From an uncultured Pseudomonadota bacterium (GTDB lineage Bacteria > Myxococcota_A > UBA796 > SXON01), in NCBI GenBank assembly GCA_903921785.1, contig CAIXRH010000085.1, positions 1-51,677 of the forward strand: a stretch of DNA of 51,677 bases. Reading direction: 5' to 3'. A program made the translations under genes and the position numbers. Below the pieces are notes generated by a model. That model made no database searches, was not told where the DNA came from, and saw only the letters and a program-made list of their open reading frames with translations. Below, piece by piece: positions 5,829 through 28,044 of the stretch; within the stretch, counting starts at the first letter, position 1, and each line of letters begins with the position of its first letter.

Positions 5829-6703
5829 GCCGGTCTTCCCTCCCGCTCGTCGCCCTCGCCGTGCTGACCTCCGGCTGCGTCCTCGACCGAACCGGCCAGT
5901 CCGCGACCTCGAAGTATGAGAAGGAGCTGGCCGACCACCAGTCCCGCGTGCGCGACCTGGAGTCGCTCGGCGAGGACGTCGGCCGCCGGGTCGCGCAGCT
6001 GGAAGAGGTCACCCAGGCGCGGGGCCAGGAAGACATCCTCAAGATGGAGACCGTGGAGGAGCTCCGCGGCGAAGTGGCGAAGATGCGCGGCGAGTTCGAG
6101 ACGCTCGACCACGACTACCGCACGTACGAGACCGCCTCCCTCGGCACCCAGACCGACGTCGATGGGCGCCTGCTCTACCTGGAAACCCGGGTTGGCGCCC
6201 TGGAGAAGACCCTCGGCGTGAAGCCGCCGCCCCGCCCCACGGCGGACGGCCTGGTGGCGGCCGACCCGGTCACCCCGCCGCCTTCCGACCCCACGCCGCC
6301 GCCAATCGACCCCGACACGGGCGACGCCGCAGCGACCACCCCCGAGGAGTACTTCGGGATCATCCAGCAGAACCTCGAAGCTGGCAACGGCGCCGCCGCG
6401 CGTGCGGTCGCCAAGCGCTACGTCGACGCGTTCCCCAAGGGCGACCGCGTCGCCGAGGCGCTGTACCGCATCGGCGAGAGCTACCAGAACGAAGAGAAGT
6501 ACAAAGAAGCGGCGGGCGCTTTCCAGGACGTGCTCGACCAGGCACCCGCGAGCACCTGGGCCCCTTGGGCGCTCTTGCGCCAGGGTGAGTGTTTCGAGGG
6601 CCTCGGGCGCGCCAAGGACTCCGCGGTCTTCTACTGCGACGTGCTCAAGAAGTACCCCAAGAGCAAGGCAGCGAAAGAAGCCAAGGGCAAGTGCCCGAAG
6701 TAG
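5825..6703 (+). CDS. cpoB: Cell division coordinator CpoB/YbgF-like TPR lipoprotein
   Basis: The 292-residue product starts at a GTG overlapping the pal stop (GTGA); this start gives a clean lipoprotein signal (ALAVLTSGC, lipobox TSGC). Residues ~25-125 are a charged coiled coil (repeated Leu/Glu heptads such as VEELRGEVAKMRGEFETLDH), followed by a Pro-rich linker. The last ~115 residues are tetratricopeptide repeats (EEYFGIIQQNLEAGNGAAARAV, AEALYRIGESYQNEEKYKEA, split). Coiled coil plus TPR is the CpoB/YbgF layout, and the position directly after pal fits a role in coupling Tol-Pal to septal peptidoglycan synthesis. E. coli CpoB is periplasmic; here it is predicted to be lipidated. Confidence 0.88.
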   Translation: MSRSSLPLVALAVLTSGCVLDRTGQSATSKYEKELADHQSRVRDLESLGEDVGRRVAQLEEVTQARGQEDILKMETVEELRGEVAKMRGEFETLDHDYRTYETASLGTQTDVDGRLLYLETRVGALEKTLGVKPPPRPTADGLVAADPVTPPPSDPTPPPIDPDTGDAAATTPEEYFGIIQQNLEAGNGAAARAVAKRYVDAFPKGDRVAEALYRIGESYQNEEKYKEAAGAFQDVLDQAPASTWAPWALLRQGECFEGLGRAKDSAVFYCDVLKKYPKSKAAKEAKGKCPK

Positions 6704-6730
6704 GGCGACCTACCCCTCGGCCCGCGCCGT

Positions 6731-7147
6731 TCACCCGTGGCGCACGATCTGCACGATCATCGCCCCGATGCAGACCAGCTGCACCACGAAGAAGGTGAAC
6801 CGTACGTTCACGATCAGGCTGCGGTTGGACACGATGTGCGAGACGGTCTGCCCCACGCGCGCGAGCACGTAGGCCAGCGCCAGGTTCGCGAACGCCCCGT
6901 CGTGCAGGCCCACGACATGGCCGGTGAGCACGACGGCGGCGAACGGCCCGAGGTTCTCCACGCAGTTTGCGTGCGCGCGGGCGACGCGGCGGTACCAGTC
7001 CGGGCCGTGCGGCACGTCCGCGGGGAAGCCATTGGGGCGCGCGCGGCCGAGGAGCACGTTGCCGACGCGGAACATGCCGACGCCGAAGAAGACGACGCAG
7101 AGCGTCCAGCCGACGAAGAACAGGAGGCAGGCCAGCGGGGTCGTCAT
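6731..7147 (-). CDS. MAPEG-family membrane protein
   Basis: The 138-residue protein has four predicted membrane helices and the MAPEG hallmarks: an early helix ending GRARPNGFP, then YRRVARAHANCVENLGPFAAVV, in which the RAHxNxxENL core matches the glutathione-binding signature of this family. MAPEG proteins are trimeric glutathione transferases or peroxidases, but bacterial members often have unknown substrates. The gene converges with cpoB. Its 14-base upstream gap after the PilZ gene stop contains a TAGCGC hexamer six bases before the ATG, so it may have its own promoter. Confidence 0.8.
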   Translation of the reverse strand: MTTPLACLLFFVGWTLCVVFFGVGMFRVGNVLLGRARPNGFPADVPHGPDWYRRVARAHANCVENLGPFAAVVLTGHVVGLHDGAFANLALAYVLARVGQTVSHIVSNRSLIVNVRFTFFVVQLVCIGAMIVQIVRHG

Positions 7148-7153
7148 CTCTGC

Positions 7154-7159
7154 GCGCTA
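7154..7159 (-). promoter_or_regulatory. Candidate -10 element of the MAPEG gene
   Basis: Minus-strand TAGCGC ends exactly six bases before the ATG at 7147. The intergenic gap is only 14 bases and contains little else. Confidence 0.45.
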
Positions 7160-7161
7160 AC

Positions 7162-8133
7162 TCACCGCCTCAACAGATCATTGATCCGGTGCCGCGCCTC
7201 CAGGCGGACCTCGAGGAAGGAGAGCGTGACAAACCGCCCGGCCTGGCCCTCGTCCACCCGGTCCACCCGCGCCGGGCAGCGCACCAGCGGCGCCCCGCTG
7301 GCACGGACGTCCACATCGGGGAGCACGCTGCCGACGCGGTAGGGCTCATCCTCATCAAACGCCCGGAAGCGTACGCCCGCGGGCGTGAGCTGGCAGCCGG
7401 CCACCAGCCGGACGTGGTTCTCCGCGTCGTGGAGCAACGCCACCACGTCGGGCACGGGCACCGGAGCCGAGCGGGTGCGGAGCTCAGCGCGCTCCCGCTC
7501 CGTGATCCAAGCCACGAGACGGTAGCGGTCGCGGGCGCTGACCCCGAGGAACTCCAAACCGAGCACCTCCTCGCGCCCGTCGGGACCGTCCCGCCGGATG
7601 CGACGCCTCACCACCGCACAAGCGATGAACGGCGCGGTGTCGCCGAGCGGCACCTGCACCAGCGGGACGTCCGCGTCCGGACCGAGGTCGTCGTCGCCCT
7701 CGGCGCGGATCGCGCAGCCGCCGCCGCTCAAGTCGAGCACCGAGCGTTGGCGGACCCCGCCTCCGTCTACGTGCACGCGAGCCTGGAGCGGGTCTGCGGT
7801 CTCCAAGCGGAAGAACCGCCGCCGCTGCACCCGCTCGAACGGCGTCTGCCGCTCCAGGACGATGCCCTCGGGCGCCACCCGGAGCACCCGCGCCGTCGCC
7901 GCGTGGGGCATGCCCGCGATCTGCACCTCCAGCCGCACCGGCCCCATGAGCCGCTCGAGGATCAGGTTGCCCTGCTGCGGCAAGACCGGCGCGACCCGAA
8001 GCACCGCACCGTCGCCCTTCAGCACGGTCGTGTAGAAGGCCTGCCCCCGTTCGTCGAGGTGCAGGCGGATCGGCGTGCCCGCCTCGCTCGCGGCGCGGTC
8101 GAGCAGGGCGGGGTCGGGCGGCGCAGTCAACAC
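7162..8133 (-). CDS. PilZ-domain protein (YcgR-like)
   Basis: About 323 residues. Residues ~10-95 look like a YcgR-type N-terminal domain. The PilZ domain begins near residue 100 with QRRRFFRLE, giving the RxxxR cyclic-di-GMP motif, and continues with LDLSGGG, the (D/N)xSxxG motif. A second, more degenerate half follows (from VALLHDAENHVRL on) and may be a second PilZ-like barrel without the arginine motif. PilZ proteins turn c-di-GMP levels into changes in motility or secretion. The start is uncertain: GTG at 8133 and TTG at 8130 both follow a GGAGG, and the frame is open well upstream. It lies 41 bases behind a second PilZ-like gene, probably one transcription unit. Confidence 0.8.
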   Translation of the reverse strand: MLTAPPDPALLDRAASEAGTPIRLHLDERGQAFYTTVLKGDGAVLRVAPVLPQQGNLILERLMGPVRLEVQIAGMPHAATARVLRVAPEGIVLERQTPFERVQRRRFFRLETADPLQARVHVDGGGVRQRSVLDLSGGGCAIRAEGDDDLGPDADVPLVQVPLGDTAPFIACAVVRRRIRRDGPDGREEVLGLEFLGVSARDRYRLVAWITERERAELRTRSAPVPVPDVVALLHDAENHVRLVAGCQLTPAGVRFRAFDEDEPYRVGSVLPDVDVRASGAPLVRCPARVDRVDEGQAGRFVTLSFLEVRLEARHRINDLLRR

Positions 8134-8174
8134 GCCTCCCCCGATCGGATGTCCAGCGCCTGGCTTGAGGGGAT

Positions 8175-9191
8175 CTACCGACCGAGCCGACGAAGGAGGC
8201 GGGTGACCCGGGCCACGTCCTCCGCGCGAGCGCTGCGCCAGGTGAGGTGCGCGTGCAGCGGGCGGGCGCGATGGCTCACCACCTCCCCCACCTCCGCTTC
8301 GGCGCCGATCACGCAGGCGCCGTCGTGCCAGAGCTCCACGCGCTTCAGTCGTTCCCCGGGGGTGAGGTCCCGGTCGCCGTCCTCGAGGCCGAGCACGAGG
8401 CCGCGGGGATGAACATCCACCACGGCGCGGCTGCGGGACCGCCCGTTGGGTCCATGAAGGACCGCGCTCGAGGCGGAGAACAGGTCCTGCGCGCGGGTCG
8501 CCTCTTCGCGTTTGCGGGTACGCGTCTGCCCGCGCACCCACGCATCAAGGCGACGAGCGTCTTCCGGGCGCAAGCCGATGAGGTCGAGCCCCGCCACCTG
8601 AACCCCGTCGTCGGCGCGCGCTCGGACATGCCGCACCACCGCGGCGGCGACGATCGGCGCTCCGATCGGCAGGGAGAACCTGAGCTGACCGAGCGCCGTT
8701 CCCGCCGCGGGCTCGTCCGCCTCGCCGGAGAACTCCACCCCGAGCCCGGAGGCGGCGAGGTCGATGATCGGCCGGCGAAACACCCGCTCCCCCGCCGCAA
8801 AGAGCACCGTGCTGCCCGCCGCCGCGGGGATTCGCGCGCTGGCTCGACGCTGGGAAGCGCGCACCCGGCGAGGCTGGCCGAGCGCGGCGCCGTCCCCGAC
8901 CGGAGAGAGGTCCGCCTCCAGGTCCCAGGATCGCCCATCGACGTGGACCACCACCCGCACGGCGGCGGCGGTCGGCACCACCGTCGGCTCGCCGGTCTCG
9001 AGCACCCGGAGACGCACGACGCCCGCCACCACGCTCACCACCGCAGCGGCGATACGCATCGATTCGCCGACAAAAACCTCAACCGCAGCCTGCTTCTCCG
9101 CGGCGCGCGCCAGCACCCGATCGAGGGCGGGAGCGCGGGCGGCTGCCGGTGTTCGGCGGACAGCGCGGGAGGTCGGAGCGGACGACGGCAT
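8175..9191 (-). CDS. PilZ-like domain protein
   Basis: The 338-residue protein has the same general plan as its downstream neighbour. An N-terminal barrel (VEVFVGESMRIAAAVVSVV) is followed by a segment with SQRRASARIP and IIDLAASGLGVEF, which resembles RxxxR plus (D/N)xSxxG with an alanine and a shifted serine. A third, weaker barrel sits near the C-terminus (RAVVDVHPRGLVLGLEDGD). The c-di-GMP motif is therefore present but imperfect. The pair probably arose by duplication. An ATG at 9191 is chosen; a TTG 42 bases upstream is also in frame. No strong Shine-Dalgarno is seen. It is divergent from guaB. Confidence 0.7.
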   Translation of the reverse strand: MPSSAPTSRAVRRTPAAARAPALDRVLARAAEKQAAVEVFVGESMRIAAAVVSVVAGVVRLRVLETGEPTVVPTAAAVRVVVHVDGRSWDLEADLSPVGDGAALGQPRRVRASQRRASARIPAAAGSTVLFAAGERVFRRPIIDLAASGLGVEFSGEADEPAAGTALGQLRFSLPIGAPIVAAAVVRHVRARADDGVQVAGLDLIGLRPEDARRLDAWVRGQTRTRKREEATRAQDLFSASSAVLHGPNGRSRSRAVVDVHPRGLVLGLEDGDRDLTPGERLKRVELWHDGACVIGAEAEVGEVVSHRARPLHAHLTWRSARAEDVARVTRLLRRLGR

Positions 9192-9331
9192 GGCGGCGAA
9201 TGTGACATTGCAAGCGGCGACCCGAAAGAGCAAAAAGTCGAAAAGAGGCGAATTCGGACATGTCGACCGGCGCTGTCCGCGGCGCTGCGGGAAGCCCTCC
9301 CCAGCGGCGGCCCTCCGAGATAGACGCGGCC

Positions 9332-10807
9332 ATGCTGCTGGCCGAACCCCCGCTCGCCCTCACGTTCGATGACGTGCTCCTCGTTCCGGGGCACTCCACC
9401 ATCCTCCCCCGCGATGCCGACGTCACGACGTCGCTCACCCGGGCGCTCACGCTCAACGTGCCGATCCTCTCGGCCGCGATGGACACCGTCACCCAGGCGG
9501 AGATGGCCATCGCCCTGGCGCGGCTCGGTGGGATGGGCATCCTCCACAAGAACATGAGCGCCGCCGCTCAGGCCGGTGAGGTCAAGAAGGTGAAGAAGGC
9601 GATGACGGGCGTCATCGTCGACCCCATCACCGTCGGTCCGGACGTGCCGCTGCGCCACGCGCGAGCCCTGATGAAGGAGTTCGGCGTCAACGGGCTGCCC
9701 ATCGTCGAAGGGAGCCGGGTGGTCGGCATCCTCACCAACCGCGACCTGCGGTACGAGCGCAACCTCGATCAGCCAATCCGCAACGCGATGACCAGCGAGG
9801 GGCTCATCACCTGCCCTCCCGGCACCGACCTGGAGACCGCGCGCGACCTGATGCAGGAACATCGCGTCGAAAAGCTCCTCGTTGTCGATGGCGACCGCAA
9901 CCTCCGCGGCCTCATCACCTTCAAGGACGTCGAGGCCACCAGCCGTCACCCCCTCGCCGCCCGGGACGCGCGTGGCCGCCTCCGCTGCGGCGCCGCCGTC
10001 GGCGTCGGCGCCGATCGCGACGAACGCGTCGCGGCCCTGGTCGAAGCCGGGGTGGATGTCATCATCATCGACACCGCCCATGGTCACTCCGAGGGGGTCC
10101 TCCGCGCCGCCCGCGCGGTGAAGTCCCAGTGGCCGAACCTCCAGCTCATCGTCGGCAACGTCGCCACCTTCGAGGCCACCGAGGCGTGCATCGCCGCGGG
10201 GGCGGACGCGGTCAAGGTCGGCATCGGCCCCGGCTCCATCTGCACCACGCGCGTGGTCGCGGGCGTGGGCGTCCCGCAGCTCACCGCCATCGCCGAAAGC
10301 GCCCGCGCCGCCAAGCCGCATGGCGTGCCGATCATCGCGGATGGCGGCATCAAGCTCTCGGGGGACGTGGCCAAGGCCATCGCCGCCGGCGCCGACGTGG
10401 TGATGGCGGGCTCACTCTTCGCGGGCACCGACGAAGCGCCGGGAGAGGTGGTGCTCTACCAGGGCCGGTCCTACAAGAGCTACCGGGGCATGGGCAGCAT
10501 CGAGGCGATGAAGGCGGGCTCTTCCGATCGTTACTTCCAGGACGACGCGGGGGACCCCGAGGCCGAGACCCGTAAGCTCGTGCCTGAGGGCATCGTCGGC
10601 CGGGTGCCGTACAAGGGCCCGGTTTCGGACACCGTGCACCAGCTCATCGGCGGGCTGCGCGCCTCCATGGGCTACACCGGCTGCGCCTCGATCCCCGAGA
10701 TGAAGGAGAAGGCCCGCTTCGTCCGCATGACGACCGCGGGGCTTCGGGAGAGCCACGTCCACGACGTGATCATCACCAAGGAAGCGCCGAACTACCGACT
10801 GGAGTAG
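9332..10807 (+). CDS. guaB: Inosine-5'-monophosphate dehydrogenase
   Basis: IMP dehydrogenase oxidises IMP to XMP with NAD+, the committed step of GMP synthesis. The 491-residue protein (start [20 protein letters not shown]) has the expected (beta/alpha)8 barrel interrupted by two CBS domains (about residues 95-210, including [11 protein letters not shown] and [14 protein letters not shown]). The active-site loop [11 protein letters not shown] holds the catalytic cysteine, and [12 protein letters not shown] and the [10 protein letters not shown] flap region are present. Size and motifs are canonical. The frame is open 24 codons upstream, but this ATG gives the family N-terminus. scoA follows after 7 bases, so guaB is probably co-transcribed with scoAB. 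Confidence 0.97.
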
Positions 10808-10814
10808 AAACCCG

Positions 10815-11510
10815 ATGAACAAGGTCTACGCGTCCGCTACCGACGCGATCGCCGACATCCCCGACGGGGCGACGATCATGGCCGGCGGCTTCGGCCTCTG
10901 TGGAATCCCGGAAAACCTGATCCTGGCGCTACGGGATCGGGGCACCAAGGGGCTCACGGTGATCTCGAACAACTGTGGGGTGGACGACTGGGGCCTCGGG
11001 CCCCTGCTCCAGACCCGGCAGATCAAGAAGATGATCTCCAGCTACGTCGGCGAGAACAAGGAATTTGAGCGGCAGTACCTCTCGGGCGAGCTCGAGGTCG
11101 AGCTCTGCCCCCAGGGCACGCTCGCCGAGCGGATCCGGGCGGGCGGCGCGGGAATTCCCGCCTTCTTCACGCCCACCGGCTACGGCACGCTCGTGGCCGA
11201 GGGCAAGGAGACCCGCGAGTTCGACGGGCGGATGTACGTCATGGAGCGCGCGCTCTTCGCGGACTTCTCCTTGGTGAAAGCCTGGAAGGGCGACACCCAG
11301 GGCAACCTGCTCTACAACAAGACCGCGCGGAACTTCAACCCGATGATGGCCACCGCCGCGCGCGTCACGATCGCCGAGGTGGAAGAGCTGGTGCAACCCG
11401 GGGAGATCGACCCCGACGCGGTCCACACCCCCGGCATCTTCGTGCAGCGCATCCTGCGCGGTCCCGCCTACCAGAAGCGCATCGAGCGCCGCACCACCCG
11501 GGAGGCCTGA
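10815..11510 (+). CDS. scoA: Succinyl-CoA:3-ketoacid CoA-transferase, subunit A
   Basis: The alpha subunit of SCOT transfers CoA from succinyl-CoA to acetoacetate. The 231-residue protein has the family I CoA-transferase signature [16 protein letters not shown] near residue 25, then [12 protein letters not shown] and [22 protein letters not shown] in conserved positions. It is followed after 3 bases by the beta subunit. Adjacency to guaB is not a functional link I can explain. Related acetoacetyl- or oxoadipate-CoA transferases share the fold, but SCOT is the closest by motif. Confidence 0.93.
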
Positions 11511-11513
11511 ACC

Positions 11514-12167
<654 letters not shown>

Positions 12168-18965: not shown

Positions 18966-20870
18966 ATGTGGTTCCTCGTCGCCTGCACCACCGCCACCCC
19001 GTCGCCCGACTCCGCGGAGACCGGCCAGGCGCCGGAAGAGGACAGCCAGATCGACAGCGCGCCCGAGGCGGACACCGGCCGATGGACCCTCGGCCTGAGC
19101 GCCGAAGCCCGAGAGCGAGTGGACCCGATCCTCTGTGCCGCAGCGCTCGCCCCGGAAGGCGTGGCGTCCACCCTGAGTTGGACCGTGGACGGTGCCCCGT
19201 TCACCGGGCTCACGCTCCTGACCCGGGAGCCCGGAGACACCGTGTTTCCAGGCTACACCCGCGCGGACCAGCTGTGGACGTGCACGCGGAGCTGGTCCGG
19301 CGGCGGATCCGAAGCAAGCAGCCGGATCCACCCTTTCGACCCTGCCAAGTTGGACCCTTATCTCGCGCCGTCGATGTGGGTCGCGGACGGGGTGCTCCAC
19401 TACACCGGGGCCCTCGCCCGTCAGCCCGCCGTCGGCGTGCTCTACGGGTTTGACGGCTGGTCCGCGCGCGAGGCCTCGCCCAACGCGGCCACATCGGTCT
19501 ACCCCGAGGGCACCTTCCGATACGGCGTGCACGCCGCCATGGTCCCCGAGCCCGGTGGCTGGGCGCTCCCCCTGGACGTCCCCGACGAGGTCCGAGCCGT
19601 CTCCGCGATCTTCGACGCCGAGGGAACGATCGAAGATCACGGCGGCACCGAGTACACCTGGGACCTGGTGTTCCCCTCGGTAGGCCCGTTCCTGACCTGG
19701 GACGACTCCACAGCTCCATCCCAGGGAATCGTGGTGAATTGGGCAACCGGCCAGCCCGGCATGGGCCTGGTCGAGTATGGACCCGACCGGGAGAACACGG
19801 CGTTCGTGCGCGACGACACATCCGATACACTGCATCATGTGTCGCTGACAGATCTTCCGGCGGCCACGCGCTTTGACTACCGGGTCCTCGACTCCCGTGG
19901 GCGGGCGTCGCCATGGTCCACGTTCACCACCGCGTCCGAGACCGACGACACCTTCACGTTCTTGGTGGCCTCCGACATGCAGGACGCGGGCAGCGACGGC
20001 CAGCGGTGGCCGGAGCTCGCCGCGACGATGATGACGGCCTGCCCCGACGCGCGCTTCGTCCTCGCCCCGGGTGACCTTTCCGCCCAAGATTCGCCCGGCT
20101 TCTGGTGGCTCTTCTTCGACGCAGGACGCCAGCTCTTCGACCACATCCCCATCGTGCCCAGCGTGGGAAACCACGACACCCCCTCTGTGTTCTCGTCACC
20201 GGACACGCGCCACTACCGGAGCTGGTTCGCACTCCCTTCCGTGGATGGAAACGAGGACCACTACCGCTTCGACTACGGAAGAATGCGCGTGTTCGCCATC
20301 AGCACCGAGTCCCTCGACGACCTGGAGCCGGACAGCGCCCAGTACGCATGGATCTCCGCCGAGCTCGGCAAGCTCCGCGACGGCACGGACGCCGACGTCG
20401 ACTGGGTGATCACCCAGGCCCACCACCCTGGATACGACATCGGCAAGCGCTTCGCCGTGGAGACACCCCGTTATCGCCCGCTCACCGAGCTGTTCGACGG
20501 CGTGGTCGACGTCGACATCCGCGCCCACGAACACATCTACCAACGCTACGTGCCGCTTCGATTCTCCAACAACCCGGTCGCGACGTACGGCCGGGGCGAC
20601 GATCAGGGGGTGGCCTACCTGGTCACGCCGAGCGCGGGGTTCGAGCACCTCGACACGGGCGTCATCGATCCCGGAATGGCGGGCGGCGACCAGCTCGAGA
20701 ACCTCGCCTGGCCCGAGCTCGCTCCGGGTCAAGGAGCCGTCGACGCCCAGCACGGCTTCCTCGTGGGCTCCGTGACGCCGAGCACCCTGTCGCTCAGCTT
20801 CGTCGAGGTCGGCTCGACCGAGGCGCCGGAGGAGCCAACGGTGGTGGACGAGCTGCGCATCGAGCGCTGA
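18966..20870 (+). CDS. Purple-acid-phosphatase-like metallophosphoesterase lipoprotein
   Basis: The 634-residue protein begins MWFLVAC, a very short lipoprotein signal with lipobox LVAC, then an acidic linker. Residues ~155-245 may be a carbohydrate-binding-like module (FRYGVHAAM, DHGGTEYTWDLVF). Residues ~250-330 resemble the FN3-like N-terminal domain of purple acid phosphatases (GIVVNWATGQPGMGLVEYG, THHVSL-type strand). The catalytic domain follows: SDMQD, APGDLSAQD, VPSVGNHDTP, ITQAHHPGYD and RAHEHIYQR. The GNHD and AHEH motifs are intact, but motif I has Gln where a metal-binding His is usual (DxH to DMQ). It is probably an outer-membrane phosphoesterase; activity with that substitution is uncertain. 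Confidence 0.85.
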   Translation: MWFLVACTTATPSPDSAETGQAPEEDSQIDSAPEADTGRWTLGLSAEARERVDPILCAAALAPEGVASTLSWTVDGAPFTGLTLLTREPGDTVFPGYTRADQLWTCTRSWSGGGSEASSRIHPFDPAKLDPYLAPSMWVADGVLHYTGALARQPAVGVLYGFDGWSAREASPNAATSVYPEGTFRYGVHAAMVPEPGGWALPLDVPDEVRAVSAIFDAEGTIEDHGGTEYTWDLVFPSVGPFLTWDDSTAPSQGIVVNWATGQPGMGLVEYGPDRENTAFVRDDTSDTLHHVSLTDLPAATRFDYRVLDSRGRASPWSTFTTASETDDTFTFLVASDMQDAGSDGQRWPELAATMMTACPDARFVLAPGDLSAQDSPGFWWLFFDAGRQLFDHIPIVPSVGNHDTPSVFSSPDTRHYRSWFALPSVDGNEDHYRFDYGRMRVFAISTESLDDLEPDSAQYAWISAELGKLRDGTDADVDWVITQAHHPGYDIGKRFAVETPRYRPLTELFDGVVDVDIRAHEHIYQRYVPLRFSNNPVATYGRGDDQGVAYLVTPSAGFEHLDTGVIDPGMAGGDQLENLAWPELAPGQGAVDAQHGFLVGSVTPSTLSLSFVEVGSTEAPEEPTVVDELRIER

Positions 20871-20876
20871 GCGCGG

Positions 20877-22055
20877 CTACATGAAGTTCCGGGTGTGGAG
20901 GCTGCTGAGCTGCTTCGCGTCAACGTCGCTGAAGCCCAACCGACGCAGCCGGACCTGCCGCCCCGCGTCCATCTCCTCGCCGAGCGCGGTGACCGCGTCC
21001 CAGCCACGCTCGAGCGCGTCGAGCTCCAGGCTCCCGGCGGCCAGGAGCACCAGGGATTCAAAGACCTCCTCGTTGAGGCCGGCGGTGTGCTGCAAGGCGG
21101 CGTGGCGCCCGAGCACTGCATTGGCCATCCGGTCTCTCAGGCTGGGGTCGCGCGCGACATGACGTTCGAGATGCGCGAGCCCGAACGCCACATGTCGTGC
21201 CTCGTCGACCGCAGCGAGTCGCGCGACGGCCGACGTCACCGGATCGGGGGCATGGTGCTCCAAGAAGCGGAGCAGCACGAGGAAGCTGCCCTCCCCAAGC
21301 ACGGAGGTGAGGAAGCTGGCGAGCGCGAAGTCCGGCTCGTCGGTCAAGGTCTTGAGCGACGCCTGCCCCCCCGCGGTGGACAACGCCGGCGCCGAGCGGA
21401 GCAGGAGCATTCGACGGGTGAAAACCTCGATGTGCCGAGCTTCATCGGCCGCCTGGATCGCCAGCAGCTGCAAGATTTCCCGGAAATGCGGATGCACCTG
21501 CGCGCAGAACCGAGCGGGCACGATGAGCGCGGCCGTCTCGTTCTCCACCAGATAGGTCATCACCTGCACCACCGCGTCCTCGACCTCCGGAGGGTGGGAG
21601 ATGGGCGCCGACCAGTCGATCGCGGTGGAGGGATCCCACTGCGCTGCCGCTGCCTGCAGGTACAGGCGCGAGGCCTCCTCGGTCCACAATTCATCGCGTG
21701 TTGCCAGCGGGAATCGAAACTCCGGGCTCCCGGCCTCAACGGCGGCACCGCGCGCGGCGAGCCCCCAGTGGGGTGAGGCGCGCTCCACCACGCCGTCGAT
21801 GCCGGCCTGGCCGGTCCGCTCCGCGCCACGCCACCGCCCGTCGAGGTGCATCGGCCGGGACACTCGCCAACCGGCACCATCCCGCTCCACGCCCGCCCCC
21901 CACCGGCGGGCGTGGGTGCCGAGATGCACCTCGAGCTCTCCATCCTCGCCCACGATCACCAACTCCTCGCCCGCTTCGAGCGCGGAGAGCGCCCGTCGGA
22001 GCGCGAGGTGCGCCCCACGGGCGAGCGAGTGGCGACCGAGGTCGAGCCGGGGCAC
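20877..22055 (-). CDS. Ferritin-like diiron protein with an N-terminal TusA-like region
   Basis: The 392-residue protein starts at a GTG one base after the preceding stop (TGA-C-GTG). Residues ~10-55 (ARGAHLALRRALSALEAGEE, then LVIVGEDGELEVHLG) resemble a TusA/SirA fold but lack its CPxP cysteine. The C-terminal ~260 residues are a four-helix ferritin-like domain with duplicated iron ligands: a helix with LVENETAALIVPARF, then ADEARH, then GEGSFLVLLRFLEHH, then VDEARH. E...ExxH...E...ExxH is the ligand set of diiron oxygenases and oxidases such as AurF. It is the last gene of a three-gene unit. I infer an oxidase or oxygenase; substrate unknown. It converges with the phosphatase gene across 6 bp. 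Confidence 0.75.
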   Translation of the reverse strand: MPRLDLGRHSLARGAHLALRRALSALEAGEELVIVGEDGELEVHLGTHARRWGAGVERDGAGWRVSRPMHLDGRWRGAERTGQAGIDGVVERASPHWGLAARGAAVEAGSPEFRFPLATRDELWTEEASRLYLQAAAAQWDPSTAIDWSAPISHPPEVEDAVVQVMTYLVENETAALIVPARFCAQVHPHFREILQLLAIQAADEARHIEVFTRRMLLLRSAPALSTAGGQASLKTLTDEPDFALASFLTSVLGEGSFLVLLRFLEHHAPDPVTSAVARLAAVDEARHVAFGLAHLERHVARDPSLRDRMANAVLGRHAALQHTAGLNEEVFESLVLLAAGSLELDALERGWDAVTALGEEMDAGRQVRLRRLGFSDVDAKQLSSLHTRNFM

Positions 22056-22056
22056 G

Positions 22057-22896
22057 TCAGCCCACCGAGGCCACGAAGGCGTCGATGGTCCCAAAGGTGG
22101 TGCACGCCGCGTCGAGCTGTGCGTACCCCTCGGTGCGGCCCGGCCGCCACGCCTTGAGCCCCTCAAGGTCCATCAACCGGCGCACCGACGGGTCGTCCCA
22201 CGACATCCCCATCAGCAACGAGACGAACCGCTCGCACGCCGCGCCGTCCACCCCGTCGAGGATGGTGAAGTTGCAGTGATCGTACGGGGCGGTGCGGTGA
22301 AGGACGCGGACGCGATGAGCAGGCGCGGTGCCATCGGCGGCGAAGCCGACGAGGTTGGCGTCGAGGATGCAGGCAGCGTCCACCTCCCCCTTCAAGAGCG
22401 CCTCCATCGCCACCCGTTCGCCGCCGATGTGGTCCCCGTGCTTGCCCACGAGGAGGTCGTGCCGCACCACCGATACATCGGCGGATGTATCGAGGCCCTG
22501 CTGCTGGAGCGACCAGAGCGGGATGAGCGTCGCCTGCGGCGAATCGCCCGCGCCCACCCCGACGCGACGCCCCCGCAGCCCCGACACGTTCTGCGCGGGA
22601 TCGTCGGCCCGAACGACCACCACGGAGGTGAGGTCCTGATCCGTGTCGCGCATCGCCACGGCCGTGGCCCGACGTCCAGTCCGGGAGGCGATCCGCTCCG
22701 CCTGGATCCACGCCAGTGGCGAGTTCCAGGCCACGTCGATCACCCCAGCGAAGTGGGCCGCCACCTGACGCTCGTAGTTATGGAACAACACGTAGTCGAA
22801 CGGGAGGCCCCGCTCCTCGAAGAACAGCTTGAAGCCGTCCCAGATGGTGACGACCTTCGGGTCGTACGCCACGGCACCGAGCACGAATGGACGCAT
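22057..22896 (-). CDS. PhnD-like periplasmic-binding-fold protein without signal peptide
   Basis: The 279-residue protein starts directly with the first strand and helix of a type II binding-protein fold (MRPFVLGAVAYDPKVVTIWD), so there is no signal peptide. VIDVAWNSPLAWIQAE, VVVVRADDPAQNVSGLRGRR, ATLIPLWSLQQQGLD and GEVDAACILDANL match PhnD/phosphonate-binding proteins, including the hinge and the GxVDAxxxxxxx turn. No ABC permease or ATPase gene is nearby. Cytoplasmic members of this fold can be enzymes (MqnA, MqnD, the Thi5/NMT1 group). It sits between an ACAD-fold flavoprotein (9-base gap) and a diiron protein (1-base gap), so a shared pathway is likely. Either a ligand sensor or an enzyme is possible. 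Confidence 0.75.
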   Translation of the reverse strand: MRPFVLGAVAYDPKVVTIWDGFKLFFEERGLPFDYVLFHNYERQVAAHFAGVIDVAWNSPLAWIQAERIASRTGRRATAVAMRDTDQDLTSVVVVRADDPAQNVSGLRGRRVGVGAGDSPQATLIPLWSLQQQGLDTSADVSVVRHDLLVGKHGDHIGGERVAMEALLKGEVDAACILDANLVGFAADGTAPAHRVRVLHRTAPYDHCNFTILDGVDGAACERFVSLLMGMSWDDPSVRRLMDLEGLKAWRPGRTEGYAQLDAACTTFGTIDAFVASVG

Positions 22897-22905
22897 GGCG
22901 CTCCC

Positions 22906-24033
22906 TCAGAAGAGCGGGAGGCCGCAGACGGCCTTCCCGATGAAGTCGTAGAGCACGTCGGTGGTCGGGCCCATGCTGCTGGCCGCCTGGGCGTCGCGGA
23001 AGAAACGTTCGACGCCAACTTCCTTGCGGTACGCCGCGCCGCCGCACACCCGCATGGCCGTGGCGGTCACCTCCAGCGCCGTCTCCGCGCCCGCGGCCTT
23101 GATCTGGAGCACCCGGAGCATCGCGTCGGCGCGCCCGGAGCCGAGGGCGGCGAGGGTATCCGCCATCAAGGCGTGAGCGAGGTCCGTCTTGATCTTCATC
23201 CGCGCGATGTAGGCGCGGATGGTCGGGAGGTCGGCGAGCGACACCCCCGCGTCCGCGTGGCGGATGGCGCCGGCGTGGGCGGCCGTAGCCGCCACCGAGG
23301 CGTCACAGAGGCCGATCGAGCACGCGGCGTTGAGCACGTTGAAGGTGGGGAGCACCACGCCCATCATCAGGTCGAAGCCCTTGCCGTCCTCGCCGAGACG
23401 GTTGGTCGCCGGAATCCGGGCTCCCGAAGCACGCACCGGCGCGCTGTCGTTCCCGCGCAGCCCCAGGCCGTCGTAGGCCGCCGTGGTGACCAGGCCCGCG
23501 GTCGGGTTCGGGACCAGCCAGAGCGTGGAGGCACCTTCGGCCGAGACCGGCTTGGAGGACCAGACGTACGCCGTGGCCTTCGCGGCCGACGTGATCCAGG
23601 ACTTCGACGCGTCGAGCACCACCGTGTCGCCGTCCACCGTCGCGGTAGAGCCCGGCGCCCAGAAGTGGCTGCGGGAGCCCGCTTCCGAGAACGCGAGCGT
23701 GCTGAGGTGCTTCCCCGCCGCGACCGCGCGACGGGTGGAGGCGTCCCCATGCGCAGCGATCACCGCGGAGCCGCAGTAGTGCATGCAGATCACCATGGCG
23801 GTGCTTCCACACGCGCGAGCCAGCCGCTCGACGACGGCCGCGGCCGCGTCGAGGCCGAGGCCGAGGCCCCCGTCGGCGACGGGGATGGTCAGCCCGAAGA
23901 GCCCGGAGGCCGCGATGGCGGCGACCGCCTCTTCGGGAAACGCGCCGTCGTGATCGACACGGGAGGCGTTGGGGGCCACGATCCCTTCGACAATGGGCTC
24001 GAGGGTGGCGAGGACGGATGCGAGGTCAGCCAT
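22906..24033 (-). CDS. ACAD-fold flavoprotein lacking the catalytic glutamate
   Basis: The 375-residue protein has the acyl-CoA dehydrogenase layout: N-terminal helices, a beta domain (LAFSEAGSRSHFWAPGSTA), and the C-terminal helical domain ending CGGAAYRKEVGVERFFRDAQA. The usual catalytic base is missing in both known places: the MCAD position (YEGT) reads SMGPT, and the isovaleryl/long-chain position (LERLVLA) reads LPTFNVLNA. This argues against alpha,beta-dehydrogenation and fits the FMN/FAD monooxygenases of this fold (DszC-type) or a non-catalytic role. It is first in a three-gene unit, with GGAG seven bases before the ATG directly after a 22-base inverted repeat. Fold assignment is firm; function is inferred. 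Confidence 0.82.
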   Translation of the reverse strand: MADLASVLATLEPIVEGIVAPNASRVDHDGAFPEEAVAAIAASGLFGLTIPVADGGLGLGLDAAAAVVERLARACGSTAMVICMHYCGSAVIAAHGDASTRRAVAAGKHLSTLAFSEAGSRSHFWAPGSTATVDGDTVVLDASKSWITSAAKATAYVWSSKPVSAEGASTLWLVPNPTAGLVTTAAYDGLGLRGNDSAPVRASGARIPATNRLGEDGKGFDLMMGVVLPTFNVLNAACSIGLCDASVAATAAHAGAIRHADAGVSLADLPTIRAYIARMKIKTDLAHALMADTLAALGSGRADAMLRVLQIKAAGAETALEVTATAMRVCGGAAYRKEVGVERFFRDAQAASSMGPTTDVLYDFIGKAVCGLPLF

Positions 24034-24265: not shown

Positions 24266-25726
24266 TCAGAGCGGGCTGACGACCTTGAGGTTCGTGTAGC
24301 CGGCTTCGCGCAGCTTGGGCTCGATCACCTTCTGGTCGCCCACCAGCACGAAGACCGCGTGGTCGGGGTTCCAAGCGGCCAGCGGCCCGGTGACATCCCC
24401 GAGCTGCACCGCCCCGATCGCGCGCAGATCGGCGGCGATGGTGTCGGGACTGCGGTTGTAGGAGAGCTCCTCCGCGTACGTGCCCGCGACGCCTCCCTGA
24501 CTCTCCAGCTCCTCCACCACGTCCTGACGGGCGGCGCCCTGGGCCTTGCCGAGCTCCTCCGCGCTGATCCCCGTCTGGATCCCCTTGAGCTCCCCAAGGA
24601 GGTCGGTGAGCGCCGGGGCGGTGACGTCGGTACGGATACGAGTGCGAACCACCAGATTCCCCGCCGAGAACCGCTGACTGAGCCCTGCCTTCACCCCGTA
24701 GGTGTAGCCGCGCTTCTCCCGCAGGAGGGCGTTGAGGCGAGAGGTGAAGGTCCCGCCGAGGGCGATGGTGCCGACCCGGGTCGGGGCCTCCACCGGGTCC
24801 CCGATGCGGGGGCCAGGGAAGGCCACGTAGAACGCCGTCTGGGCCGAGTCTGGAACGTCTACCAGGAAGATTGGCTCGTGGTCGTGGACCGGCGCGGCAG
24901 CGATCACCGGCTCGGTCGGGGCCGTTCCCGTCCAGGCCCCAAAGCGAGCGTTGAGCGCGGTGATCACGCTGTTCGCGTCCACCGCACCAGCCACCGTGAA
25001 GCCGGCGCCGCCGGCCACGAAGGTCGACTTCACCCAGCGCTTCACATCCGCCGGTTTGGACGCCTTCAGCCCGGCCTCCGTCCCATCCGACGGGCGACCG
25101 TACGGGTGACCGGTCCCCCAGTACAGCGCCTGCGCGGTTCGAGCCGCGACGTAGGTGGGCTCGGAGAAGCTCTGCTGCAGGCCGGCAAGCAGGAGGTCGC
25201 GCGCCTTGCGGATCTCCTTCGGCGTCAGCTTGGGGCGCAGGACGAGGTCGGCGAGCAGGTCGAGCCCAGGCTCAAGCTGGCTGACGGGCCCGCTGAGGGT
25301 GAGGTAGCTTCCGTCCTCCGTGGCCGCGCCGTTGATGGTGAGCCCGCGCCGTTCCACTTCGGCGGCAAATTCCGGACCGGTACGATCTCCCGCTCCGCGC
25401 CGCATCGCTTCCATCGCCAGCGCGGCCGTGCCCTCGTGGCCCGCAGCGTCGAGCTGCGAGCCGCCGGGCACGGTGAGCACGAGCGTGAAGATCGGCAGGG
25501 TGGCGGAAGGGATCACCCAAACCGGCACATGGTTGGAGAGCTCACGCACCTCCGGCGTGGGCGGCGAGAACGACACCACCGGCCCGACCGTGGGCATGGT
25601 GGCGAGCGGATCCACCGGCACGGGTGCAGCTTCCACCACCGGCGGAGGCGGCGGTGGTGGCTTGGGCCGGGCGCTCGCGGTGAGCGGGAGGAGGGCGACG
25701 AGGCCCAGGAGCAGGCGACGGTTCAC
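24266..25726 (-). CDS. M16-family peptidase, inactive subunit
   Basis: The 486-residue protein has an N-terminal signal sequence (RRLLLGLVALLPLTASA), a Pro-rich linker and two M16 (insulinase-like) halves. The zinc motif HxxEH is lost: the position reads HEGTAALAMEAM. The C-terminal half keeps the R/Y pair region (LREKRGYTYGVKAG), which helps bind substrate in partner subunits. This is the usual division of labour in bacterial M16 heterodimers, in which one chain has the HxxEH and the other the R/Y motif. The start GTG overlaps the upstream M16 stop by four bases (GTGA). It should act in the periplasm with the gene just upstream. Confidence 0.88.
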   Translation of the reverse strand: MNRRLLLGLVALLPLTASARPKPPPPPPPVVEAAPVPVDPLATMPTVGPVVSFSPPTPEVRELSNHVPVWVIPSATLPIFTLVLTVPGGSQLDAAGHEGTAALAMEAMRRGAGDRTGPEFAAEVERRGLTINGAATEDGSYLTLSGPVSQLEPGLDLLADLVLRPKLTPKEIRKARDLLLAGLQQSFSEPTYVAARTAQALYWGTGHPYGRPSDGTEAGLKASKPADVKRWVKSTFVAGGAGFTVAGAVDANSVITALNARFGAWTGTAPTEPVIAAAPVHDHEPIFLVDVPDSAQTAFYVAFPGPRIGDPVEAPTRVGTIALGGTFTSRLNALLREKRGYTYGVKAGLSQRFSAGNLVVRTRIRTDVTAPALTDLLGELKGIQTGISAEELGKAQGAARQDVVEELESQGGVAGTYAEELSYNRSPDTIAADLRAIGAVQLGDVTGPLAAWNPDHAVFVLVGDQKVIEPKLREAGYTNLKVVSPL

Positions 25727-27021
25727 TTCTTCACCTCCTCAGGGTTCACCACGATGCGCGTAGCGAGTTCGGGCTTGAGCCACTGAGCCACCACCGCCGA
25801 GATCGCCGTCGGTTGTGCGCTTGAGAATCGCGATACGTCCTTCGCCAGATAGTCTGGAGAGCCGGTGTAGGCCCAATACCGGTTGAGCGACTCCGCACGG
25901 TTCTGCAGCGGCTCGAGCTCCTCGAAGGTGGAGATCGCGTGCTGGTTGAGCAGCCGCTCCATCTCCTCCGGCGTGGGCGGGGCATTCCCCAGCTTCGCCA
26001 ACTCCTCCTTCACGACCTTCTCCACCGTCTCCACTTTCACCCCGGACATGGGGATCACGCTCACCATGAACATCCCGTCGTACTGGAGACCGTACTGGAA
26101 GACGTCCACCTCTTGGGCGAGACCGCCGTCCACCAGCCGCTGGTACAGGCGCGAGCTCTCCCCGCCGCCCAGCAGATCCGCCACCAGCACCATCTCGGCG
26201 TCCCCCGCGCCGAACTTCGCCGGGCTGTGCCAGACGAGGTTGAGCTGGGGGGCGTCCACCTGGTCGGTGATGGTGACGTCGGTCTTCTGCGGCGTGGTGA
26301 CCGGCCCGGGCACCACCCGGACGGGGAGCTCCTTGCGGGCGAGGCCCCCGAAGTACTTCTCCACCCAACCTCGCGCCTGCGCCGAGTCGAAGTCCCCGGA
26401 AACCACCAACGACGCGTTGTTCGGAACGTACCAGCTTGCGAAGAAGCCCTTCACGTCCTCGACCGAGGCCGCCTGGAGGTCCTCGTGGCTGCCGATGACC
26501 GAGTGATCGTAGGGGTGACCCGTCGGGTAAAGCGCCGTCGGGATCTCGATCTCCACCATGCCGTACGGGCGGTCTTCGTTGCTCTGCCGCCGCTCGTTCC
26601 GGACGACATCCCGCTGAAGATCGAGCTTCTCCTGGGTCATCGCCTCCCCGAGCTGCTGCATCCGGTCGGCCTCCATCCAGATGAAGGTCTCGAGCAGGTT
26701 TGGCGGACCGACGTCGTAATAGTTGGTCGCGTCCTCCATCGTCCAGGCGTTGTTCCAGCCGCCGGAGGCCTCCATCACCTTGTCGAAGCCGTTGCCCGGG
26801 AGCCGAAACGTCCCCATGAACATCAGGTGCTCGAAGAGGTGGGCGAAGCCGCTGCGGCCCTTCGCCTCGTCCTTGCTACCTACCCGATACCACGTATCCA
26901 CGCACACCTGGGGCAGGTGGTGATCCTCCATGAGGATCACCTGCAGGCCGTTGGGCAGCTCGTAGCGGGTGAAAGGGATGGAGGGATCGGCCGCGTACGC
27001 CACGGCGAGGAGGACGAGCAT
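25723..27021 (-). CDS. M16-family zinc metallopeptidase, catalytic subunit
   Basis: The 432-residue protein has a short signal-like N-terminus (MLVLLAVAYAAD) followed by an active M16 site: HLFEH (HxxEH) near residue 61, and the downstream glutamate in the LQRDVVRNERRQSNED region (ligand E about 76 residues later). The C-terminal half (QLNLVWHSPAKFGAGDAEM) lacks the R/Y motif that its partner supplies. It cleaves peptides, probably in the periplasm. The start lies one base after the trxB stop (TGA-G-ATG), so trxB and both M16 genes form one unit. The frame is open upstream into trxB, but this ATG gives the signal-like start. Confidence 0.9.
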   Translation of the reverse strand: MLVLLAVAYAADPSIPFTRYELPNGLQVILMEDHHLPQVCVDTWYRVGSKDEAKGRSGFAHLFEHLMFMGTFRLPGNGFDKVMEASGGWNNAWTMEDATNYYDVGPPNLLETFIWMEADRMQQLGEAMTQEKLDLQRDVVRNERRQSNEDRPYGMVEIEIPTALYPTGHPYDHSVIGSHEDLQAASVEDVKGFFASWYVPNNASLVVSGDFDSAQARGWVEKYFGGLARKELPVRVVPGPVTTPQKTDVTITDQVDAPQLNLVWHSPAKFGAGDAEMVLVADLLGGGESSRLYQRLVDGGLAQEVDVFQYGLQYDGMFMVSVIPMSGVKVETVEKVVKEELAKLGNAPPTPEEMERLLNQHAISTFEELEPLQNRAESLNRYWAYTGSPDYLAKDVSRFSSAQPTAISAVVAQWLKPELATRIVVNPEEVKK

Positions 27022-27022
27022 C

Positions 27023-27970
27023 TCAGTGCCCCCCGCCGGCCGCCTGCTCCTCCAGCCAGCGCTCGGTCTCGATCGCGGCGCCGCAGCCCGTGCCCGCAGC
27101 GGTGACCGCCTGCCGGTAGACATGATCCGCGGCGTCCCCGCAGGCGAACACGCCCTCGATGTTGGTGGCCGTACGCCCCGGCTTGGTGACCAGGTAACCA
27201 AGCTCATCGTGGTCGATCCACTGCACGAACGCCTTGGTGTTCGGCTGGTGGCCGATGCCGAGGAACATGCCGCCGATGGGCTTCTCCCACTCCTCACCGG
27301 TGACGGTGTTCTTCAGCCGGAGACCGCTGATCTTGTTCTGCCCGAGCACGTCGATCACCTGCGTGTTCCAGAGCATCTCGATTTTCGGGTTGGAGGCCGC
27401 CTTGGCCTGCATCGCCTTGCTGGCGCGGAGCGAATCCCGACGGTGGACGATGTACACCTTCGTGGCGAAGCGGGTGAGGAACGTCGCCTCTTCCACTGCC
27501 GTGTCCCCGCCGCCGATGACAGCGAGCTCGACCCCCTTGTAGAAGAAGCCGTCGCAGGTGGCGCAGGCGCTCACGCCGCCGCCGATCTTCTGCAGCCGCT
27601 CCTCGTTCTCGAGACCGAGGTACTTCGCGTCCGCGCCGGTGGCGATGATGAGCGCATCGCAGGTGTAGGTGTCGCCGTTGGCGGTGTGGAGCGTGAACGG
27701 GCGCTGGCTCAAATCACAGCTCTCCACCTCGTCCATCACGAAGCGGGTGCCGAAACGCTCCACCTGGGCGCGCATCCGGTCCATCAGCTCGGGGCCCTGC
27801 ACCCCCTCCGGGAAGCCGGGGTAGTTCTCCACCTCGGTGGTGATCGTCAGCTGTCCCCCGGGACGGAGACCGTCGAACACCAGGGGCTTGAGGTTGGCGC
27901 GGGCGGTGTAGAGGGCCGCGGTGAGGCCGGCGGGGCCGGAACCGACGATGATGACGGTCTCGTGGGGCAT
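27023..27970 (-). CDS. trxB: Thioredoxin reductase
   Basis: The enzyme uses NADPH and FAD to reduce thioredoxin. The 315-residue protein has the FAD-binding VIIVGSGPAGLTAALYTARA, the redox-active CATC (in SACATCDGFFYKG), the NADPH-binding VIGGGDTAVEEATFLT and the C-terminal FAD motif GVFACGDAADH. The ATG at 27970 is supported by GGAG five bases upstream and by a -10 candidate (TAATGG) giving a ~19-base leader. It heads a unit with two M16 peptidases, a link I cannot explain by function. It is divergent from queG across 86 bp. Confidence 0.96.
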   Translation of the reverse strand: MPHETVIIVGSGPAGLTAALYTARANLKPLVFDGLRPGGQLTITTEVENYPGFPEGVQGPELMDRMRAQVERFGTRFVMDEVESCDLSQRPFTLHTANGDTYTCDALIIATGADAKYLGLENEERLQKIGGGVSACATCDGFFYKGVELAVIGGGDTAVEEATFLTRFATKVYIVHRRDSLRASKAMQAKAASNPKIEMLWNTQVIDVLGQNKISGLRLKNTVTGEEWEKPIGGMFLGIGHQPNTKAFVQWIDHDELGYLVTKPGRTATNIEGVFACGDAADHVYRQAVTAAGTGCGAAIETERWLEEQAAGGGH

Positions 27971-27995
27971 GGGTACTCCGGTGCAGTCGCCGGGC

Positions 27996-28001
27996 CCATT
28001 A
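27996..28001 (-). promoter_or_regulatory. Candidate -10 element of trxB
   Basis: Minus-strand TAATGG predicts a start near 27989 and a 19-base leader that includes GGAG, so trxB appears to be a leadered gene in contrast to its divergent neighbour queG. Confidence 0.4.
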
Positions 28002-28044
28002 GCGCGGACCACTGCCGCTCGCGTGCCAAAAAATGCCACGGCGT

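Follow-up and report, generated by a model that had tools for sequence, protein, structure and literature searches.

A conserved trio of genes for an ACAD-fold flavoprotein, a cytosolic PhnD-fold protein and a diiron protein is probably linked to selenium metabolism

A 51,677-nucleotide stretch of DNA from an uncultured bacterium (contig CAIXRH010000085.1 of assembly GCA_903921785.1; the window) carries three closely spaced genes that encode an acyl-CoA dehydrogenase (ACAD)-fold flavoprotein (P1), a cytosolic PhnD-fold protein (P2) and a diiron protein with a TusA-like domain (P3). On the basis of the genomes in which this trio occurs and of the genes found beside its homologues, we conclude that a link between the trio and selenium is well supported. 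The best explanation of the data as a whole, which we put forward tentatively, is that the trio constitutes an O2-dependent pathway in the cytosol with ties to selenium metabolism. The trio matches no described system found in this analysis, and the assignment to selenium is its new content; the usual annotations of P1, P2 and P3 are very likely incorrect.

All three genes lie on the minus strand, in the order P1 (22906-24033, 375 amino acids), P2 (22057-22896, 279 amino acids) and P3 (20877-22055, 392 amino acids, GTG start), with gaps of 9 nt and 1 nt, as stated in an earlier interpretation made from the sequence alone (the sequence-only reading). That reading would have been refuted had the three genes never co-occurred in other genomes, but they do. 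A genome scan for P2 yielded 80 loci, of which 62 contain P1, P2 and P3 side by side in this order; among the remainder, several end at contig edges. According to their record titles, the loci belong to Myxococcota, Planctomycetota, Acidobacteriota, Nitrosomonas, Zoogloea, Xanthomonadaceae, Actinomycetota, Chloroflexota, Spirochaetes, Armatimonadota and others. Synteny of this extent is far above chance, and no gene beyond the trio itself recurs beside it across phyla in the 80 loci. The view that the trio is one cytosolic oxidative functional unit, and not fatty acid oxidation plus transport, was borne out.

The lead to selenium came from a selenoneine-type operon that includes a P2 homologue (loci L075 and L139), and the co-occurrence of P2 with SelD (selenophosphate synthetase) was then tested. 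In L139 the operon (6036-11902, minus strand) has the order OsmC, P2 homologue, core-MetE, SenA, SenB and EgtD; its SenA scores 523 bits, above the cut-off of 420, and its SenB frame is broken by one TGA. Is P2 then found in bacteria that use selenium? The presence of SelD is generally accepted as marking a genome for selenium use (PMC5322559, PMC2276186), and SelD occurs in about 38% (38.3%) of sequenced bacteria (PMC5322559). Among Myxococcota, SelD was present in all 30 genomes with a strong P2 match compared to 174 of 284 overall (family-stratified exact p = 0.0036), and in 47 of the 82 genomes having only generic PhnD-type matches to the same model (Fisher p 1.6e-6 versus strong P2, counted by hand). 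In other phyla, 33 of 36 distinct further P2 genomes encoded SelD; this count was 34 of 37 before removal of one entry (G288) that is the same genome as a Myxococcota entry (G262), with the same SelA coordinates.

A further comparison came from the family of one Nitrosomonas genome (G290), a Nitrosomonadaceae-type family. Its 110 genomes include 15 with P2 and 36 with SelD, and SelD was found in 15 of 15 genomes with P2 versus 21 of the remaining 95. A fused SelD of ~730 residues occurs in nine of these genomes, all nine of which have P2. P2 in this family tracks two SelD types, the ~730-residue oxidoreductase-SelD fusion and a type scoring >430 bits, and the 21 genomes with other SelD lack P2. 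Two further draws were nearly uninformative: SelD was present in both P2 genomes of a 320-genome draw around G314, and in 7 of 7 P2 genomes of a 160-genome draw around G285, yet also in 139 of all 160. When all draws were pooled, about 81 of 84 P2 genomes contained SelD, the exceptions being G284, G304 and G307.

We then asked which selenium trait could account for this pattern. Nearly every trio genome has SelA or SelU. SelU occurs without SelA in three Nitrosomonas-type genomes, a metagenome-assembled genome (MAG) of Leptospiraceae and two others, and most of the rest have SelA without SelU. Because SelA and SelU vary independently, neither selenocysteine (Sec) alone nor selenouridine alone can be the linked trait. 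Selenoneine was likewise ruled out as the common factor, since SenB scored above its cut-off in only 2 of 38 genomes; none was found in the genome of the window. A 95% complete genome (G142) that has the trio and a fused SelD gave no match to SelA or SelU, and in G262, G298 and G315 the fused form is the only SelD over the cut-off, alongside SelA. The trio thus shares with the known SelD-dependent traits (Sec, selenouridine, the selenium cofactor of selenium-dependent molybdenum hydroxylases and selenoneine synthesis by SenABC) its co-occurrence with SelD, but it is independent of SelA and SelU, rarely accompanied by SenB and unrelated to them in composition.

Genomic linkage to selenium genes is mixed: it is lacking in most loci and clear in two, L139 with SenA and SenB and L021 with selD. 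The latter, from an Eremiobacterota MAG with no SelA or SelU match, has a Sec-type selD (10075-11090, minus strand) with an in-frame TGA at the Sec position, convergent to the trio and ~40 bp from it. The sequence-only reading had offered, as an example, an organosulfur or organophosphorus substrate. We found no evidence for either; the almost complete nesting of P2 within SelD genomes, the selD-adjacent trio and the P2 homologue in a selenoneine operon point to selenium instead.

P2 matches the phosphonate-binding domain Phosphonate-bd (PF12974, E 2.6e-28). Its nearest NCBIfam model, NF049985 SBP_like_Rv1680, scores 230 bits, below the curated cut-off of 400, making P2 a relative and not a member of that family; next comes TIGR04553, a putative selenate-binding protein and the closest of the transporter-type families. 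The N terminus, MRPFVLGAVAYDP, has no signal peptide by reading, and the first strand of the fold begins at residue 4. No ABC permease or ATPase genes adjoin P2, in agreement with the claim that it lacks both export signal and transporter. The predicted structure (mean predicted local distance difference test score, pLDDT, 97.1) is closest to PhnD, PtxB and HtxB (Foldseek E 2e-21) and also resembles the oxyanion binders AioX and ArrX. PtxB and PhnD bind the three phosphite oxygens through an STS-H motif and a tyrosine, and a further tyrosine caps the substituent that is not oxygen (PMC5700983). By profile alignment to these ligand residues (PMC5700983), P2 keeps the serine and the histidine in invariant form: S119 (22540-22542, minus strand) is equivalent to the oxyanion-contacting S130 of Te_PtxB, and H153 (22438-22440, minus strand) to H160 of Te_PtxB and H158 of Pm_PhnD. 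Y41 aligns with the phosphite-contacting Y55 of Te_PtxB. The capping tyrosine (Y208 of Te_PtxB, Y206 of Pm_PhnD) is replaced by C208, within the pair H207-C208 (22273-22278, minus strand). Thus, P2 has the fold and three contacts of the reduced-phosphorus binders, but neither their signal peptide and ABC genes nor their capping tyrosine.

C208 is kept in all aligned P2 sequences save one paralogue group that has DCRC instead. This group, from one Myxococcota genus (L116-L120), consists of lone P2 paralogues with DCRC for DHCN, near genes for a YfcE-like phosphodiesterase, PrxQ and TcdA; no selenium genes were found next to these paralogues.

P1 contains the three domains of the ACAD fold (PF02771, PF02770 and PF00441; Acyl-CoA_dh_N, _M and _1). 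Certain glutamates are the catalytic residues of the ACAD family. The glutamate of the short-chain and medium-chain enzymes (SCAD/MCAD) corresponds in the alignment to G355 of P1, where 97 homologues have A, G or S, and that of the isovaleryl-CoA and long-chain enzymes (IVD/LCAD) corresponds to F231, an invariant phenylalanine in the homologues. The absence of a catalytic glutamate in P1, already reported from the sequence, therefore extends to both known positions, and judging from the alignment P1 keeps the fold of the family, not its chemistry. The nearest NCBIfam model is NF049984 Rv1679_FadE16 (392.8 bits, below its curated cut-off of 600, so that membership is not indicated); P1 is also related to the models for SfnB, DszC and 3-sulfinopropanoyl-CoA desulfinase, the match to DszC being weak.

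P3 matches AurF (PF11583, E 2.1e-8) and the structure 6d9f (phmmer E 4.2e-7), and an NCBIfam search returned nothing specific for it. Its model (pLDDT 95.6) has as nearest Foldseek folds 6d9f, a VlmB homologue, VlmB itself (8wvr) and aldehyde-deformylating oxygenase. Residues ~120-320 (21096-21698, minus strand) form a four-helix diiron core with the ligands E171/E173, E205xxH208, E255 and E285xxH288, which are invariant or near-invariant in 74 sequences; the full ligand set claimed for this protein is thus conserved, including the paired ExxH motifs shared with AurF, VlmB and the deformylating oxygenase. Identity to these enzymes is low, about 22%, and the third histidine of AurF is not conserved in the P3 family (A281 here, mostly A, T, V or S). 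P3 further differs from these enzymes in an extra N-terminal domain that the sequence-only reading had missed. This Cys-less TusA-like domain (approximately residues 1-70; 21846-22055, minus strand) has TusA/YhhP as its top PDB profile match, a weak one (E 0.06), and hhalign relates it to a TusA-OsmC fusion of locus L022 (96% probability) and to the N terminus of an Rv1681-type radical SAM protein of locus L158 (88%). At the position of the CPxP cysteine of TusA, the P3 family has the consensus GLD, and the protein in the window has SLA.

In loci without P3, P1 and P2 are found with other partners, which suggests that P1-P2 is the core of the system and that the TusA-like domain recurs on interchangeable partners. 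Five P1-P2 loci (L074, L076-L079) have a core-MetE protein and OsmC instead of P3, and in L022 the TusA-OsmC fusion lies with core-MetE 4 kb from a full trio. In L158 (3186-6362), a radical SAM protein of the Rv1681 family with its own TusA-like N terminus (479.5 bits, cut-off 380) stands in place of P3; L114 and L051 also pair P1-P2 with such a protein, and L069 retains only a truncated remnant. The diiron and radical SAM versions may represent O2-dependent and O2-independent forms of one step.

The sequence-only reading knew of no described system with this composition. We found no match to the trio, and to that extent the claim stands, but the composition is not wholly unfamiliar because the P1 and P2 families are catalogued in NCBIfam, with no function assigned, as Rv1679 FadE16 and Rv1680 SBP-like. 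The corresponding Mycobacterium tuberculosis genes are Rv1679-Rv1680-Rv1681 (fadE16, Rv1680 and moeX; NF049984, NF049985 and NF049973). FadE16 and Rv1680 are homologues of P1 and P2, which score below the curated cut-offs (393 versus 600 and 230 versus 400), and the third gene of the trio encodes a diiron rather than a radical SAM protein. In the titles and abstracts of the literature searched, no function was found for Rv1679, Rv1680, Rv1681 or fadE16. MesD, of the MesD/MesX folate-independent methionine synthase, is a core-MetE protein (PMC7857596), and MesD-type methionine synthesis was considered because variant loci carry core-MetE, but the trio itself has none. The variant loci inspected showed no MesX (DUF1852), for which no dedicated search was made.

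How might the trio act on selenium? In selenophosphate, a PO3 compound, selenium occupies the place covered by the cap, and we therefore propose that P2 could be a cytosolic selenophosphate receptor with no transport role. S119, H153 and Y41 would hold the PO3 group and C208 would face the selenium, yielding Cys-bound selenium (a perselenide). P1, as a flavin oxidoreductase, would prepare the acceptor; P3 would use its TusA-like domain to dock a selenium carrier or the substrate, and its diiron center would perform the O2-dependent step that fixes selenium to carbon. Selenium would thereby be placed on a small-molecule acceptor to give a seleno-metabolite or cofactor. This mechanism, with P2 taking selenium from selenophosphate and P1 and P3 placing it with O2 on a small molecule, is possible rather than probable. 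We give similarly guarded standing to its general form, a SelD-dependent trait not recognized before, in which a PhnD-fold selenophosphate-to-cysteine selenium transferase, an ACAD-fold flavoprotein and an interchangeable TusA-domain partner (diiron/O2, radical SAM or OsmC/core-MetE) would produce a novel organoselenium metabolite or cofactor across many phyla.

Several observations weigh against a selenium pathway of this kind. No selenium genes adjoin the trio in the window or in most loci. SelD was not seen in three P2 genomes, all of them MAGs, and the P2/SelD counts come from MAG-based genomes that are not mutually independent, so that the p-values are only guides. Many of the fused SelD proteins resemble TIGR04369, named 'fusion_not_SelD', though both that were scored fall below its cut-off; their CxxK motif is kept. 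The Nitrosomonas fusion scores 490 bits with TIGR04369, below its cut-off of 700, and coexists there with SelU. P2 has P120 and Q121 where the STS motif has T131 and S132, and the ligand may therefore not be a PO3 compound. M. tuberculosis has Rv1679-Rv1681 but is not known to have a Sec system, so the Rv1680 branch may not need SelD.

An equally simple model, in our judgment rather unlikely, places the trio upstream of SelD: cytosolic breakdown of organoselenium compounds would feed SelD for Sec or selenouridine synthesis, with P1 and P3 cleaving C-Se bonds oxidatively and P2 handling a selenium oxyanion or seleninate. Co-occurrence with SelD is just as expected from such a supply route, the near-universal presence of SelA or SelU in trio genomes fits it, and each of the three kinds of partner (diiron, radical SAM and core-MetE) might provide a way of removing an alkyl group from selenium. 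The Dsz pathway provides a precedent, in which ACAD-fold and SBP-fold cytosolic enzymes (DszC and DszB) take part in oxidative desulfurization; P2 differs in belonging to the PhnD branch, the trio has no DszA, and it is widespread, including in autotrophs. However, the P2 homologue in a selenoneine biosynthetic operon belongs to selenium use downstream of SelD, neither SelA nor SelU accompanies the trio and SelD of G142, and no uptake system is linked to the trio.

Less probable again is that the chemistry concerns sulfur (a thiophosphate, a sulfur carrier or an organosulfur compound) and that SelD correlates with it through lifestyle only. The sulfur-linked TusA-like and OsmC domains, the relatives of P1 among sulfur enzymes and the related Rv1679-Rv1681 cluster, going by its family names, all suit this idea, but the SelD nesting recurs inside unrelated families and is not shared by generic PhnD-type proteins, and there are direct links to selD and SenA-SenB. 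The pathway suggested by the sequence-only reading, cytosolic oxidative degradation of a phosphonate or other organophosphorus nutrient or of an organosulfur one, can claim the PhnD fold and the partly kept phosphite and phosphonate contacts. It is nevertheless improbable: the trio has no recurring neighbors that encode a transporter, C-P lyase or phosphonatase, nor any recurring sulfonate genes, lithoautotrophic Nitrosomonas has it, and P2 has SPQ for STS and cysteine for the capping tyrosine. The default annotation of each gene would make the trio an ordinary beta-oxidation enzyme, an orphan periplasmic binding protein and an unrelated ferritin-like protein. Three-gene synteny over many phyla refutes this, and with both catalytic glutamates absent from P1 and no signal peptide on P2 we consider it highly improbable; fatty acid oxidation combined with transport is ruled out by the missing glutamate, the lack of a transporter and the conserved trio.

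In the window, a calcineurin/purple-acid-phosphatase-like gene (18966-20870, plus strand) is convergent with the trio, its end lying only a few bases from that of P3. Upstream on the same strand as the trio (24266-28039, minus strand) are two M16-type peptidase genes and a thioredoxin reductase gene; these neighbors were assigned by reading. Rfam and tRNA scans of the window gave no match.

In surveys of selenium use, 'orphan' SelD genes have found no explanation and a further SelD-dependent trait is predicted (PMC5029168, PMC5322559). A conserved operon that is confined almost entirely to SelD genomes, spans many phyla and is independent of Sec and selenouridine supplies named candidate genes for such a trait. 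It also puts a likely element behind the uncharacterized Rv1679-Rv1681 families. If P2 binds selenophosphate, it would show a transport fold turned to selenium chemistry and would be, to our knowledge, the first cytosolic PhnD-fold protein in that role. The default annotation of such genes as fatty acid or phosphonate functions misleads metabolic models.

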